Assembly (NCBI GenBank): GCA_022828225.1 | Contig: JAJEJG010000004.1 | Location: 39,605-103,604 of the forward strand | Length of the DNA: 64,000 nucleotides | Direction: 5' to 3' | Origin: Nitrospirales bacterium | GTDB taxonomy: Bacteria > Nitrospirota > Nitrospiria > Nitrospirales > UBA8639 | In this document: piece by piece, positions 35,058 to 50,506 of the stretch | How positions within the stretch are numbered: the first letter of the stretch is position 1 | Layout: each line of letters opens with the position of its first letter | Made by a program: the position numbers and the translations under genes | The notes under the pieces: generated by a model | The model's database searches: none | Told to the model about the DNA's origin: nothing | The model's input: only the letters and a program-made list of their open reading frames with translations

Positions 35058-35144
35058 TGGTGCCCGGACCGAGGGTCGAACTCGGACTCTCTTGCGAGAA
35101 CCAGATTTTGAGTCTGGCGCGTCTGCCAGTTCCGCCATCCGGGC
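35058..35144 (-). tRNA. tRNA-Leu (anticodon CAA), CCA encoded
   Basis: GCCCGGATGGCGGAACTGGCAGACGCGCCAGACTCAAAATCTGG...GAGTTCGACCCTCGGTCCGGGCACCA; long variable arm. Confidence 0.95.
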
Positions 35145-36264: not shown

Positions 36265-36376
36265 GCAGCAACACCCCTCCTCTTCACCTCATGGAAGACG
36301 ATCAGCCTCCGAACACATTGATTCCAATCGTTTTCTGGGGGTCACACTAAGACGCCGAATAATAGGCAACTGTCGA

Positions 36377-38137
36377 TCAGTGGCTCAGAAGCTTGGCCAA
36401 CTCCGTGTTCAAGTGGGAAAAGGCGTCGATCACTCCGTCGAAGACATGATCGAGGGCAAGACCGTAGCCTTGGTTCAAAGCCGCCGTGTCGAAGCCGAGG
36501 GTCTCAAGGCTCCTGAGCACGCCGCCTGTGTCATGTGCGTCCGCTATGCGAAGATCGTTGTTGACGAACAACGCTGCAAGGGCACCGTTTTCGGTCGTCA
36601 AGTCTCCCGGCTCTGCGTCGGCACCGAAGGCGTCGACACGCTCACCCTTGGCGTTCAGCCGCTCTACGATGTTTAATAAGGCTTGCAGCAACTTAAGGCT
36701 GCCTAGGGTCTTGATATCCGAGCGGGTGTGGCCGGCACTCACTAGAAGGTTTCGCAGGAAGCCGTTTGGAATGCGTTGCCAAAGCTCATGAAGGTTCTTA
36801 CACCGCGAGAGAAAAGCTTGCTCCGTCATGGAAAGTGGAGCCACCTGAGCGAGGCGTGACAGTTCAGGATAGTTCAACCAGCCATTGTCGCGCAGTTCCG
36901 CACGGGAGAGCTTAAAGATTTCGGTTGCTGGCCGCGGTGCCGCGCCTGCGGCGTCGCTCAGTTCCGCGAGGTGATCGCCAAGATCTAGCAGTTGTTCCAC
37001 AAAGCGGCCTGTCTTGGAAACGATGTGCTCTTCATCTAGGTTGAGCTCCGCGACTTGGACAGGATCGAGCACGTGGTCATAAGCGTGCTTTATCTCTCGA
37101 TCTGGCTTCGGCTTATAGAGTTCCCGCATCGATACCTTAATTAGATTGCGGCCAACCCGAACGCAGTCTGTGAAGGCCCACTGACCGCCGTAGGATGGGC
37201 TACAATTCCACTTTCCATAAATGTTAACTGGTGATGTGTCGAAAAGACTGCTCTGCTCATACCGTTCTAGAAATCGGTCATCGAGGTGTACGGGCATGAT
37301 CTCGACGAGAGCATTGGCTCGGTCGTGCGTCATTGGACCGGCAACACCTGGCCAGATTAGACCGTTCGCGCTCGGTTCGGGGCTGAGCTCCGGAGTGACC
37401 GCAACTACACTAGCCAAGACCTGTATTAGAAGCCCGCCCTTGTGCTCTCGGATGTCGAGGTCGTACCAGCCGCCACCAGGGTTTAGTCGCGCGTGACCCT
37501 CGCCCGCCATCAATGCCCGGAGGTCGGGGCAATCCGGCAACAGAGTTTCGTAAAAGAAAATCCGGACGCCGTAGGCGCCCCGCATCCAGAGGTAACGTCG
37601 CAGGTATTCGTTGGACATCGTCCAACTGACATTCCTCTTCGGAGAGAAGTAGTACTCGGTCGAGATTTCCCCCTGTGCGACCTCAAACGCCGGAAGCGAC
37701 AGGTCGTCAAAGATCACTCGCTGCTGGTCACCGCCAAGGCAGCGCGGCGAGAGTCCCAAGGCCATCCAGACCTTCTCCGCAAGACTGTAGCTGTAGAAGG
37801 AGCCGTTGCCCCAAGATGCCACGATGTAGTCGAGTCCAGACACCGACGGTGTGAAGTCCGCTAGTTCGCCTTGCTCCCTCACGTACGGTGTGGAAAAGAA
37901 GACCACGCCGTCACTGGCCTCCCGTGGAATACCTAGTTGGGCAATGTCAGCCTTCGGCACCAAAGCCATTACCATATGGACGTACTCACGATCCGGACCG
38001 TACTGGTCGACGTCGTATCGGGAAGCCACCTCGACCCGAAGTTGGGGGTTGTCGTTGATCGGCTCAAGCAGACTATGCAACCGCAACGGCAACTGCGTCG
38101 CCGGTATTGGAAACTCGTTCAGATAATCGATGACCAA
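36377..38137 (-). CDS. uncharacterised 586-aa protein with C-terminal Rx4H motif
   Basis: Long ORF; C-terminal helix-rich ALFVNNDLRIADAHDTGGVLRSLETLGFDTAALNQGYGLALDHVFDGVIDAF. Confidence 0.75.
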   Translation of the reverse strand: MVIDYLNEFPIPATQLPLRLHSLLEPINDNPQLRVEVASRYDVDQYGPDREYVHMVMALVPKADIAQLGIPREASDGVVFFSTPYVREQGELADFTPSVSGLDYIVASWGNGSFYSYSLAEKVWMALGLSPRCLGGDQQRVIFDDLSLPAFEVAQGEISTEYYFSPKRNVSWTMSNEYLRRYLWMRGAYGVRIFFYETLLPDCPDLRALMAGEGHARLNPGGGWYDLDIREHKGGLLIQVLASVVAVTPELSPEPSANGLIWPGVAGPMTHDRANALVEIMPVHLDDRFLERYEQSSLFDTSPVNIYGKWNCSPSYGGQWAFTDCVRVGRNLIKVSMRELYKPKPDREIKHAYDHVLDPVQVAELNLDEEHIVSKTGRFVEQLLDLGDHLAELSDAAGAAPRPATEIFKLSRAELRDNGWLNYPELSRLAQVAPLSMTEQAFLSRCKNLHELWQRIPNGFLRNLLVSAGHTRSDIKTLGSLKLLQALLNIVERLNAKGERVDAFGADAEPGDLTTENGALAALFVNNDLRIADAHDTGGVLRSLETLGFDTAALNQGYGLALDHVFDGVIDAFSHLNTELAKLLSH

Positions 38138-38349
38138 AGCGAGGCCCCTCGTGACCTTTCCCCTAATTTAGGTCCAGGTCGAGCGTGAAGGATTGGGGGA
38201 ATTATAGCCGCTGTGATAGCTGTGTGAAAATGGTCTCACTTTGGGAGGCACGGGGGGGCAGCCCCTCGTCGTTACAGTACCCGGCCACTGCTGGCTATGC
38301 CACCTTGCGGACTGAGATCTCATCGGAACGGCGCAGAAAATCAGAAACC

Positions 38350-39132
38350 TCATTGCTGTGACGATGTCAGCTTAGCCGTCGAAGTAAGTATTTGAAAGAT
38401 ATAGTCTGCCATAATAATCATGTTCATACTGTGTTTAAATGTAGAGTATGGAACAAGTCCGTGCGTGGACGCATGACGGTTTGGAACGTAATCCCCCTCA
38501 TATTGTGCCCTATTACTATCGTCGACTGGTTCATACAAGTGATGAACAAGTCGATCAAATAGTATCCAACCATAAGCCTCTCTTGGCAGGAAGTTTCTTA
38601 TTTCTCCTTGATTTGTAAGTTTCTCCAACATCTTCTTCGAGGAAATTGCACCCGCAGCATCTTCAAAATAATGAATGCGAAATTCCCGATCTATTTCTGG
38701 GAACAGGACACGGCAAACACACCGATAGTGCCCCATACCGTGCGCAGAAAGCGCTTCGCGAAATGTCTCTTTGGTTTCCTCTGATATGTGATAATGATTC
38801 AATCTATTTTCGATGTCTTGACGGATGCTTTCCCAATTGTTCTCGTAGAAACTTGTCAGACGGGCTTCGAGCAGAGATACATCGTCTCTGCATTCCTCAA
38901 CATAGTTCATCGACACAGTATGATACGGTAACCAGCCCGTCGGACGGACTGAATCGATGAATTTGTTATACCTCACAAAGTGCTTAATGTGCGGAGCTAT
39001 CGCTTCGAGAAAAGGCGTGATAGCTTGAGAGACACGTGACATTGATTGAATGAACGGCTGAAGAGGTTCAACCAATCGTTGCAACGCAGCACATAGGTTC
39101 AGAATACTTTGAATGGTTTGGTTATATGTCAT
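38350..39132 (-). CDS. uncharacterised protein with HEPN-type NRHASTHG motif
   Basis: C-terminal YVPNRHASTHGLVPYSTFKHSMNMIIMADYIFQIL. Confidence 0.75.
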   Translation of the reverse strand: MTYNQTIQSILNLCAALQRLVEPLQPFIQSMSRVSQAITPFLEAIAPHIKHFVRYNKFIDSVRPTGWLPYHTVSMNYVEECRDDVSLLEARLTSFYENNWESIRQDIENRLNHYHISEETKETFREALSAHGMGHYRCVCRVLFPEIDREFRIHYFEDAAGAISSKKMLEKLTNQGEIRNFLPREAYGWILFDRLVHHLYEPVDDSNRAQYEGDYVPNRHASTHGLVPYSTFKHSMNMIIMADYIFQILTSTAKLTSSQQ

Positions 39133-39711
39133 GTGCGATGTTCCTACCTTGTCCAAATACGATCGCCGCGATCCGTCTCGTTGTGTCGGTGAAGTGCTGG
39201 ACTTCTTCGGGTTTGAGGGAGCGGTCGAGGATGTCGCTTTCGCGGTAGGAGAGCCATTTTTTGAGGACCTGATAGCCGCCGAGTTTGTAGGTCCAGACGG
39301 CGGCAGGGATGTTGCGCCAGAAGGCGCGGTCGTTCAGGTACACGTCGAAGGTGGTTTCGCCGAGCGTGGGGATGCTGTCGCCCAACGCTGACTTTTCACC
39401 TGGTGTATAGGCGCGCTCGGTGATGCGGCCTTGGCCCGGCATGACGGTATCACCTGTTCCGAAGTGGCCCCAGCCAGCCATCACCGCGAAATCGTCTCCG
39501 GTCATGTTATGGCCGTCTATGGTTGTGGGAAGGCAATGTCGCCGACACAGAACACCTTGGGCTTGAGCGTTGCACCCACGACATTCAATAGGTTGGCGAG
39601 CGGCCCGTAGCTCGACCGCTCCCCGGTCGCGCCGCCCAACGCGCTGACTCGCCGGAGGTCGGCGAGGTAGGTTTCAATGGTTGCCGTGAGTTTTGTGTTC
39701 ATTCGGGTCAT
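39122..39711 (-). pseudogene. internally deleted type ISP-like restriction-modification gene (N- and C-terminal ends only)
   Basis: N-terminal piece TATIETYLADLRRVSALGGATGERSSYGPLANLLN (39711..39517) followed by C-terminal piece FDVYLNDRAFWRNIPAAVWTYKLGGYQVLKKWLSYRESDILDRSLKPEEVQHFTDTTRRIAAI (39505..39122). Confidence 0.75.
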
Positions 39712-39768
39712 TTCTGCCTATGCGCTCTCATTCGTTGACAAAATGCCAGAGAAGGGACCATCACTGCT

Positions 39769-45616: not shown

Positions 45617-45950
45617 GGGACTTATATATCAAACTACATATCACAGGAACGCCTTGTCTCGCCTGTGCAGCGCACACTCAAGCTGATGATGGTTTCCGCT
45701 CCCGTCACGACGGAGACCACGGAGAAAGACATGAGCAGAAAAATTGACGGAGCGGACGGGAAAGGTCTTTACTGGATTGGAAAGAGGAGGAAGCTCAGGA
45801 AGGTTGGGCGGGGTTTGGACACCCCGCCCTTCAGAATGTATACGACGAAGTGTTGGATGTTCCGCCGTAGACCATGGTCATTGGTAGACTCCTTTCTTCT
45901 CTTTGATTAAACGTCCAACTTTTTTATCCTACCAACCACACCCGAACACG

Positions 45951-47527: not shown

Positions 47528-48478
47528 TCACGCCACCCAACGGGATCTGTTTTTGGATTTGCCGGTGAGAACAGCATACGGCAAATGAACGTTGACGCAG
47601 CGACGGCACAAGGCCTCCAGGCGATCCAAGACGTGTTCGGACACACGGCCCTCGGACAAGCGGAAGGTGGCTTCGGCGAGGTAACGGGGCAGGTGTTTCC
47701 GGCTGACGTGATGGTGCGTGCCCATGAGGGAACGTTTGAACACGGCCCACACGCTTTCGATGCTATTGGTATGCACCAGCCCTCGAACGTACTCATGGGC
47801 CTGATGGTTGACGGTGCCGTGCCCATACCCTGAGGCCGCTAGGCCGGCATAGCCCGCATGTTCATCCGTGAACACGGCACTTCCTCGTTGGACGCGTCGG
47901 CGAATCTCCGGTTGGAGGGTATCCCGCCGGGTATCGGCCACCACCATAGCCCGGGTCGGCCCACCCCGTTCCCGCATCCCGAGGACGATGGTTTTATCGG
48001 CCCCGCCGACGGGGAACCGCTGGCCTTTCTTGCGATGCTTGTTCTTGGCCTTGCCCCCGATATAGGTTTCGTCCACTTCAATCGCCCCGGACAGGGGCTG
48101 GGGATCGGCTCGGCACGCTTCCTTCAACCGATGGACGAGATGCCACGTGGCCTTTTGGGTGAGACCGAGTTCCTTCGACAGTTGCAGGGACGAGACGCCT
48201 TTGCGGGCGACCACGACTTTGTACATCGCGTGCAGCCACACACGGACGGGGAGCGGGCTGGCTTGCAAGACGGTGCCGAACTTGGCGGAGAACTGTTTCC
48301 GGCAGACCCGGCACCGATAGAAGAACGGATGGCCCGACTTCGGGACCACGTCGGCGCTCTGGCAGACCGGACACGTGGGGCCAGTCGGCCATCGGATGGA
48401 TTCAAAGAACTCGACGGCGGCCGCTTCCGTCGCAAACAGGGCAAACAAGTCCCGTTCACTGATCGTGACTGAACACAT
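47528..48478 (-). CDS. IS1595-family transposase
   Basis: N-terminal zinc ribbon (CPVCQSADV...YRCRVCRKQFSAKFGTVL), DDE-type core IEVDETYIGGKAKNKHRKKG ... VFTDEHAGYAGL ... HTNSIESVWAVFKRSLMGTHHHVS. Confidence 0.92.
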   Translation of the reverse strand: MCSVTISERDLFALFATEAAAVEFFESIRWPTGPTCPVCQSADVVPKSGHPFFYRCRVCRKQFSAKFGTVLQASPLPVRVWLHAMYKVVVARKGVSSLQLSKELGLTQKATWHLVHRLKEACRADPQPLSGAIEVDETYIGGKAKNKHRKKGQRFPVGGADKTIVLGMRERGGPTRAMVVADTRRDTLQPEIRRRVQRGSAVFTDEHAGYAGLAASGYGHGTVNHQAHEYVRGLVHTNSIESVWAVFKRSLMGTHHHVSRKHLPRYLAEATFRLSEGRVSEHVLDRLEALCRRCVNVHLPYAVLTGKSKNRSRWVA

Positions 48479-48735
48479 CGCGCACCTCCAGATGATAGGG
48501 TTGATAAACCCCTATTGTATGGAGGTCGTCACCCCCAGACAAGCAGGATGATAAGCCGTGGGGAGGGAGGATTCAGAGGCGGGTTTTGATCCTGCGACGC
48601 TTGTGTTCCCCTTTTGGTCCCATATACTCTGTAAGAAGAAAGGAAGCACACGGACTTCTGCCGATTGACGGGGAACCAAGCCCATGCCACAATGCTGGCT
48701 TGCTGGCTTATTCATTCTTCCAGAAAGGATTCACC

Positions 48736-48789
48736 ATGACTACAACGTCTCGTGTCACCTTTAACTTTTACGCTGAGGGTGCACTATGA
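48736..48789 (+). CDS. 17-aa leader ORF overlapping the next start (ATGA)
   Basis: SD-like AGAAAGGA, then MTTTSRVTFNFYAEGAL*; stop overlaps ATG at 48786. Confidence 0.4.
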   Translation: MTTTSRVTFNFYAEGAL

Positions 48790-49094
48790 GCGATCAAGTC
48801 CCACCATCTGACCCAAAGTTTACTGAACAAACAGTCCCTCTCAATGCCCCGATTCCACAAATCTATATGAATGGGTTCGAGGTAAGTCTTTCGTTATCCG
48901 ATTTCAGCATCACGCTGATGGCCCATGATCGCCAACTGGCGTATTTACTCATGTCCTTCAGTACGGCAAAAACCTTGTCCGAAAGTCTCACGCAAGCCGT
49001 CCAAACGCTTGAGAAAACAACCAGTCGGGAGATTATGACCATGAATGATGTCAGACAGGCGATAGACTCGAAGCGCGAAAGCCCAGCCTCATGA
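48786..49094 (+). CDS. DUF3467-like small protein
   Basis: IPQIYMNGFEVSLSLSDFSITLMAHDRQLAYLLMSFSTAKTLSESLTQAVQTLE. Confidence 0.65.
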   Translation: MSDQVPPSDPKFTEQTVPLNAPIPQIYMNGFEVSLSLSDFSITLMAHDRQLAYLLMSFSTAKTLSESLTQAVQTLEKTTSREIMTMNDVRQAIDSKRESPAS

Positions 49095-49534
49095 ATACTT
49101 CAACTTACAAAGGTTGGCCTGTAGGGGTAGAGGTGGGATTGAATTGCTTAACGCGAGCCCCGGCGCTCAGCTTCCTAAACATTCCACGTCGGGTAAGTCA
49201 CGGAGTGCAGGATTATATTTTGCGAATTCACGAATCGAAAAGGTACCGTCTGGTGGCGAGGCCTTCGTTTATTACGGCCTTGCCGGAGGCCCCCTATTCG
49301 CTTCGAGTGCCGATCCCTATTCTCTTGGAAGCCTTAGAATCAGGAGGATGGATTGCCACGTTCGATGAAGCGAATATCGCTATGATTGGCGAAACGCCAG
49401 AGGAAGCCAAAGAGTTGCTCTCTTACAATATCGTCGATGCCATTGAATTATTTTATTCACATGAAGAAGCGTTGGTACCTGATCTCAGACAGACCTTAGA
49501 GATCCTTCTTCGCTATATCGAGCCGTCAACATGA
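49091..49534 (+). CDS. HicB-like antitoxin-type protein
   Basis: GGWIATFDEANIAMIGETPEEAKELLSYNIVDAIELFYSHEE; precedes HicA-like ORF; ATGA overlaps. Confidence 0.6.
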   Translation: MNTSTYKGWPVGVEVGLNCLTRAPALSFLNIPRRVSHGVQDYILRIHESKRYRLVARPSFITALPEAPYSLRVPIPILLEALESGGWIATFDEANIAMIGETPEEAKELLSYNIVDAIELFYSHEEALVPDLRQTLEILLRYIEPST

Positions 49535-49839
49535 AAATTTTCACGCAAGCTGATGCTCGTAAAATTGCCAAAAAACTCGGGGCCACCATTGAAAAAGGGA
49601 GTAGACACGACAAGGTCAAGGTCAAATATCAAGGTCGCGTGGTTGGGTTTTATGGGATCAGGCGATCGAGTCGAGAGATTGATCACGCACACATTACTAA
49701 ACAGCTTCATATCTCAAGGGCGGCAGCACGTGGGCTGGCTGACTGCCCGGTGAGTAAAGCCGAATACTTTGACATGATGCGAGCGATAGGAAAGATCCCG
49801 AGAGGAGAGGAGGACAGCCCATGCCTGCCACACTCGTGA
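49531..49839 (+). CDS. HicA-like toxin-type protein
   Basis: TQADARKIAKKLGATIEKGSRHDKVKVKYQGRVVGFYGIRRSSREIDHAHITKQLHIS; GSRH aligns with the HicA catalytic-His loop. Confidence 0.65.
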   Translation: MKIFTQADARKIAKKLGATIEKGSRHDKVKVKYQGRVVGFYGIRRSSREIDHAHITKQLHISRAAARGLADCPVSKAEYFDMMRAIGKIPRGEEDSPCLPHS

Positions 49840-50093
49840 CCTATGACTTACACAAAGAAAAATCTGATTCCGACCGGGCCGCGATTCGACAAGCCATAAA
49901 AACCATCGGGAGTTGGGCTCGACTATCCGAATCATCGTATGCTGTCAGTACCTTTTTGTCGCCAGGCGAAATTCATGGCAAGCTAAGGCCCTATCTTGAC
50001 GACAATGACCATATTTATATTATCAGGCTCACTCAGCCGCATAGCGGGTTTGGGCCCACAGACGTTAACGAATGGCTTCGGTATAACTTATAG
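49821..50093 (+). CDS. Cas2/VapD-like ferredoxin-fold small protein
   Basis: MPATLVTYDLHKEKSDSDRAAIRQAIKTIGSWARLSESSYAVSTFLSPGEIHGKLRPYLDDNDHIYIIRL. Confidence 0.6.
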   Translation: MPATLVTYDLHKEKSDSDRAAIRQAIKTIGSWARLSESSYAVSTFLSPGEIHGKLRPYLDDNDHIYIIRLTQPHSGFGPTDVNEWLRYNL

Positions 50094-50506
50094 CTCACCG
50101 CCACACCTACAAAGACCAACCTCGTTACGTCACACGACCTGGTCCTGTGCCATCCTTTTGGGCTTCCTCCTCTTTCCAATCCAATTAAAGACCCTTTCCT
50201 CCTAACGGCCAACAGGGTCAAGAGTCGTGTTCGGCCACCCCTGGATTCAACCGAAAACCAACCCTGAGAAGGACGAGCGGACCAGAGGACGGGAAAAACA
50301 CACAACGGGGCAGAAATCGGGACGGCCCAGTGACCTGATGTGTAGTTTGATATATAAGTCCCCTTACAAAGGGGAGGACACCTGCCTTCAACGCTGAAGA
50401 CCCGTGACCTTATACGCCTTCTTTCCACGTTTCTTGCCGCTATGGTACATTAAAAAGAGAAGACTCGCGCAAAAATCTTCACCCTGCATGGAGCAGGCTT
50501 TCTTTC

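Follow-up and report, generated by a model that had tools for sequence, protein, structure and literature searches.

A candidate tripartite HicBA-type toxin–antitoxin operon with an exchangeable first gene in a Nitrospirales bacterium

What do the overlapping genes of a small operon in a Nitrospirales bacterium encode, and which of them belong together? The question is raised by a locus in the 64,000-nucleotide stretch of DNA analyzed here (hereafter, the window), where four genes, designated A to D, follow a short leader:

48665..48693, + strand: possible sigma-70-like promoter, TTGACG-17-CACAAT, a consensus match only (9/12)
48736..48789, + strand: putative leader ORF MTTTSRVTFNFYAEGAL, 17 aa, too short for a homologue test
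48786..49094, + strand: gene A, DUF3467-like third component, 102 aa
49091..49534, + strand: gene B, predicted HicB-like antitoxin, 147 aa
49531..49839, + strand: gene C, predicted HicA-like toxin, 102 aa, with a GSRH loop and two extra C-terminal helices
49821..50093, + strand: gene D, Cas2/VapD-like small protein (PHROG 1090), 90 aa, probable passenger

All five ORFs are intact, lie on the plus strand, and overlap head to tail. Specifically, the leader/A, A/B, and B/C junctions are 4-nt ATGA overlaps, and C and D overlap by 19 nt. The stop/start overlaps described in the initial annotation are borne out, with coordinates and junctions exactly as given. The Shine-Dalgarno sequences of A, B, and C are weak, as expected under coupled translation; that of D is strong (gaggagaggaggacagcccATG). 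The order A-B-C or B-C is found again in independent genomes, and the arrangement is thus beyond chance.

The identity of C emerges from comparison of profiles for C (14 sequences), B, canonical HicA, and HicB, the canonical HicA profile being built from E. coli and PF07927 loci of the same order. By hhalign, the C family matches canonical HicA with a probability of 96% (E 1.4e-9, 69 columns), and the crossed controls, C against HicB and B against HicA, both fall below 0.5%. The window-type subgroup alone (4 sequences) reaches 27% against HicA (E 6.6e-4) and joins the other C proteins firmly, at 98%. The GSRH loop of C aligns with the GSNH of E. coli HicA. Its histidine is invariant among the five closest C proteins; the GSxH histidine is kept throughout the window group and is missing from L046, L048, and L051. 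A structural model of C, of moderate confidence, has the order α-β-β-β-α followed by two C-terminal helices (residues 63–71 and 76–85), and the C-terminal block is conserved. Two relatives of C, one of them the HicA-like protein of locus L015, match Pfam HicA below the cut-off (E 0.0096 for L015 and 0.025 for the other). Foldseek with the C model yielded no meaningful match, the first C profile retrieved nothing from among solved structures, and no C was found in plasmids, phages, or viral contigs.

Gene B encodes a protein of two parts. Residues 1–53 are unstructured in the AF2 model (pLDDT about 30 for residues 1–50), and the remainder is modeled with pLDDT of about 90, residues 54–147 having the strands and helices of a HicB-type partial RNase H fold. 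The B core matches HicB in hhalign with probabilities of 78–85% (best E 6.7e-6, about 1e-5). An hmmsearch of the B profile against the PDB returned only two chains, both HicB (E 0.02–0.03). Foldseek gave weak HicB matches to the B model; the highest in probability were 3k6q (named antitoxin; probability 0.85, E 0.4) and 2yzt, both of which we take to be of the HicB kind, with poor E-values. In addition, the relative of B at locus L009 matches a HicB-like PHROG (E 1e-4). Neither Pfam nor the AF2 model revealed a DNA-binding domain in B, and the extension is N-terminal, with no C-terminal counterpart. The curated libraries Pfam, NCBIfam, and PADLOC gave no name to the window B or the window C, neither of which reached a HicA or HicB cut-off. 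Judged by these profile comparisons, B is a genuine, if remote, relative of HicB, and C of HicA. The initial annotation had called B HicB-like and C HicA-like with a GSRH loop, and both assignments are upheld, as is its description of A as DUF3467-like, considered below.

How widespread is the pair? A profile search, with the loci read by hand, located C in 14 of 399 genomes of the phylum, that of the window included. The B-C pair is present in the 13 other genomes, which include distant families; one copy, L008 (G013), is decayed, with B in fragments. In most genomes a third gene stands ahead of the pair, and that gene differs between loci. In the window it is the DUF3467-like A, at L010 an A-like gene of 122 aa, at L009 a 226-aa ORF, and at five loci (L047, L049, L050, L052, and L053) a member of TIGR04255 (E 2e-25 to 4e-32). 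Locus L015 has a long fused HicB (360 aa) before a HicA of 92 aa. No first gene was seen at L045, L048, or L051, and L046 is truncated by the end of its contig. A third gene is thus dispensable in some lineages, several B-C pairs lacking it. At L045, two different HicBA modules adjoin (491–906 and 1507–2114), one of them canonical, with GSNH and PRHH, the other of the longer kind found in the window. At L051 (G120 C9, 1495–2133) a HicB–HicA-like pair interrupts a translation operon between its thrS-like and infC-like genes.

The N-terminal extension of B measures 52–114 aa where a third gene is present (n=8) and 32–62 aa where it is not (n=4; p 0.016), and aromatic residues are richer in the extensions that accompany a third gene (p 0.004). 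These sequences are few and related, and at one of the pair-only loci, L046, the contig ends 306 bp upstream of B. A link between the third gene and a longer, more aromatic extension of B is therefore suggestive.

What, then, is A? It aligns with most of the Pfam DUF3467 domain (E 0.028, 14.9 bits, under the 25-bit gathering cut-off), matches PHROG 7919 (E 3.4e-4), and, compared by hhalign with 11 DUF3467 proteins, gives a probability of 10% (E 0.003, 58 columns). Searches of plasmids found neither A nor B. Shared ancestry was considered and rejected both among the differing third genes and between these and the additional domains that Class 8 HicB possesses; the comparisons gave no signal (best 1.3%). 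Homology to SecB was likewise rejected for A, DUF3467, TIGR04255, and the 226-aa ORF; for A, Pfam gave no SecB match and hhalign 0.1%, the SecB profile being a weak one of two sequences.

Members of these two families also occur beside other gene pairs. TIGR04255 is present in 49 of 249 genomes searched in the same phylum. By hand count, a small gene starts no more than 33 nt after the TIGR04255 stop in 21 of 26 readable loci, with a 4-nt overlap in 12 of those 21, and the partners are several unrelated pairs. At L071 (G010 C1, 775–2735), a locus from the same genus as the window, a DUF3467 gene lies between genes for Xre HTH and RES-domain proteins, making another three-gene toxin–antitoxin-like operon that contains DUF3467. 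Because DUF3467 and TIGR04255 genes join other toxin–antitoxin-like pairs, the third gene is exchangeable, as it is in toxin–antitoxin–chaperone (TAC) modules. Two TIGR04255 operons recur. One (L080, L083, L086, L088, L090, L092, L097, L098, and L103) comprises TIGR04255, a "WDGYDA" protein of ~165 aa, and a protein of ~126 aa; neither partner has a Pfam match, and the middle protein resembles the PADLOC defence candidate PDC-M32A (E 2e-5). The other (L081, L084, L091, and L095) has partners of ~118–131 aa and ~180–223 aa that belong to no known family. The phylum also harbors a TAC-like HigB–HigA–SecB module (L056; G124 C17, 646–1857).

We assign a probability of about 0.6 to the reading that A-B-C is a tripartite type II toxin–antitoxin module of the HicBA kind, with C the toxin, B the antitoxin, A an exchangeable helper, and D a passenger. 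On the strength of homology and gene anatomy, C would be an RNase, a HicA-type toxin acting via the GSRH histidine, and B would neutralize it, its C-terminal HicB fold binding C. A would most likely bind the unstructured N-terminal extension of nascent B and stabilize B, as SecB does in TAC modules. A shortage of A or B, brought about by stress, phage takeover, or loss of the island on which the operon lies, would lead to loss of B and release of C. Freed C would cut RNA, and growth would stop. Counting against this reading are the lack of sequence similarity between A and SecB, the N-terminal position of the B extension, the B-C pairs without a third gene, the poor Foldseek results for B and C, and the small, related sample behind the extension comparison. 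Given that the third genes have no detectable homology to each other, a single mechanism common to them is an assumption.

The proposed module resembles several known systems and coincides with none of them. Canonical HicAB of E. coli K-12 has in common with it the GSxH motif of C, the dsRBD-type order of that protein, and the HicB fold of B. By contrast, in the window the gene order is reversed, B has no DNA-binding domain, C is longer, an extra gene A is present, and the proteins miss the Pfam cut-offs. Class 8 HicBA modules combine a HicA of about 95 aa, with a dsRBD-type fold and two extra C-terminal helices, with a three-domain HicB of 331–356 aa that has no DNA-binding domain; the HicB gene comes first, and the genes often overlap (Gerdes 2024, PMC10865869). 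The operon in the window agrees in its HicB–HicA order, in the overlap of its genes, in its 102-aa C with two C-terminal helices, and in the absence of a DNA-binding domain. It differs in that B, at 147 aa, lacks the two N-terminal domains and carries an unstructured extension, and in that a separate gene A stands ahead. L015, a locus that both the B and the C profile detect, resembles Class 8 in the lengths of its HicB and HicA. None of the 14 published HicBA classes has a three-gene form like that of the window (PMC10865869). TAC modules containing HicAB, HigBA, or MqsRA pairs are known, and the chaperone-binding extension of their antitoxins is C-terminal (Bordes et al. 2016, PMC5105189). 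Like these modules, the operon in the window has a putative type II pair and a small third protein, an extended antitoxin, and a kind of third gene that pairs with several toxin families. Unlike them, it has the third gene first and the antitoxin extension at the N terminus, and A, DUF3467, and TIGR04255 lack sequence similarity to SecB.

Could A instead regulate the operon or act as a sensor, either conferring autoregulation or detecting a phage product and thereby releasing the toxin? Because B has no recognizable DNA-binding domain, A could supply autoregulation, and the variation of the third gene from locus to locus is what sensors would display. A also scores very weakly with the MreA regulator family (E 0.051), reaching 13.4 bits where the cut-off is 100. 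However, Pfam recognizes no HTH or RHH domain in A, and the antitoxin-like partner of DUF3467 at L071 has an HTH domain of its own. We regard a regulatory or sensory A as improbable, though a serious competitor to the helper role.

The place of D bears on a further alternative, in which C and the Cas2-like D are joint effectors against mobile elements, under the control of A and B. D is probably co-expressed with C, given the 19-nt overlap and its strong ribosome-binding site, and toxicity is known for VapD, a relative of Cas2 (PMC11980593). D shares an N-terminal aspartate, that of YDL, with Cas2/VapD/BPSL1038-type ferredoxin-fold nucleases, and the Cas2/VapD-type pattern that the initial annotation pointed out is present, its YDL and DDNDHIYIIRL elements being conserved within D's own family. 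D falls in PHROG 1090, whose function is unknown (E 1.5e-14). Cas2 appears among its weak PDB matches, and the Cas2 profiles TIGR01573 (E 0.0098, 16.1 of 24.5 bits) and that of PADLOC (E 0.0026) score below their cut-offs. The reported lack of cas1 extends to the entire genome, and no VapX, VapW, or VapY partner was recognized. A true Cas2 was rejected in view of the profile scores and the missing cas1. Phages, plasmids, and bacterial genomes carry relatives of D that stand by themselves. Among 161 loci (5,618 ORFs), D occurs together with B or C in the window only, and the B and C profiles found no match at the D loci of phages and plasmids. We therefore judge D to be probably a passenger gene of Cas2-like fold that follows C, perhaps with an effect of its own. 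The toxin–antitoxin core of the composite proposed in the initial annotation is supported, and A-B-C or B-C recurs in other neighborhoods; its four-part, Cas2-containing form is not supported, D being independent, absent from every other B-C locus, and not conserved with the other three genes. No other case was found of the two RNA-binding or nuclease folds acting together, and we consider joint action of C and D very unlikely.

The operon lies on an island of ~4.9 kb, to which the following features belong:

45617..45643, strand not given: left arm of a 27-bp inverted repeat, near the island edge
47528..48478, − strand: IS1595 (ISXO2-like) transposase (Pfam E 2e-44; NCBIfam E 8e-56)
50336..50362, strand not given: right arm of that repeat (27 bp), close to the other edge of the island

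The island was found in none of the eight sister-genome stretches compared. Seven of them have the matches to window positions ~45,480 and ~50,415 side by side or nearly so, and the intervening ~4.9 kb is thus inserted in this genome; in the eighth, from G008, matches are limited to the right flank and one short repeat. The 27-bp inverted repeats contain a CCCCTTTGTAAGGGG-like palindrome, and different short palindromic repeats occupy that junction in sister genomes. Elsewhere in the window, positions 36304–39757 (ORFs of 586 and 268 aa) form another variable insertion, the flanks of which are adjacent in G003, and a tRNA-Leu (35058–35144) lies nearby.

The IS1595 element sits inside the island, upstream of the operon and divergent from it, and is single-copy in the genome. 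We do not judge its transposase to be part of the module. IS1595 was also rejected as the carrier, since it is single-copy and a search for a second end that would enclose the operon found none. The same observations, together with a transposase that points away from the operon, leave the earlier suggestion that the module addicts its host to the transposon unsupported. Another reading takes the island for imported, decaying DNA that now has no function, its genes intact only through recent insertion. This is the least probable reading of all: it fits the absence from the sister regions and the fragmented B of L008, but every ORF of the operon is intact, the coupling overlaps are retained, and the phylum has the module again in families that are far apart.

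Beyond the A-B-C module itself, we tentatively offer a wider proposal, which we consider possible and somewhat doubtful: DUF3467 and TIGR04255 may be general, exchangeable third components of many tripartite toxin–antitoxin or defence modules, guarding antitoxins that would otherwise be unstable and that come from unrelated families, HicB and Xre among them, in the manner of SecB while being unrelated proteins. No paper in the literature searched mentions TIGR04255. Operons such as that of the window have presumably been missed because their HicA and HicB proteins fall under every curated cut-off tried. If this picture is right, a three-gene form would be added to the 14 published HicA contexts, SecB may not be the only third protein on which a toxin–antitoxin pair can rely, and two uncharacterized families, DUF3467 and TIGR04255, would gain a testable role.
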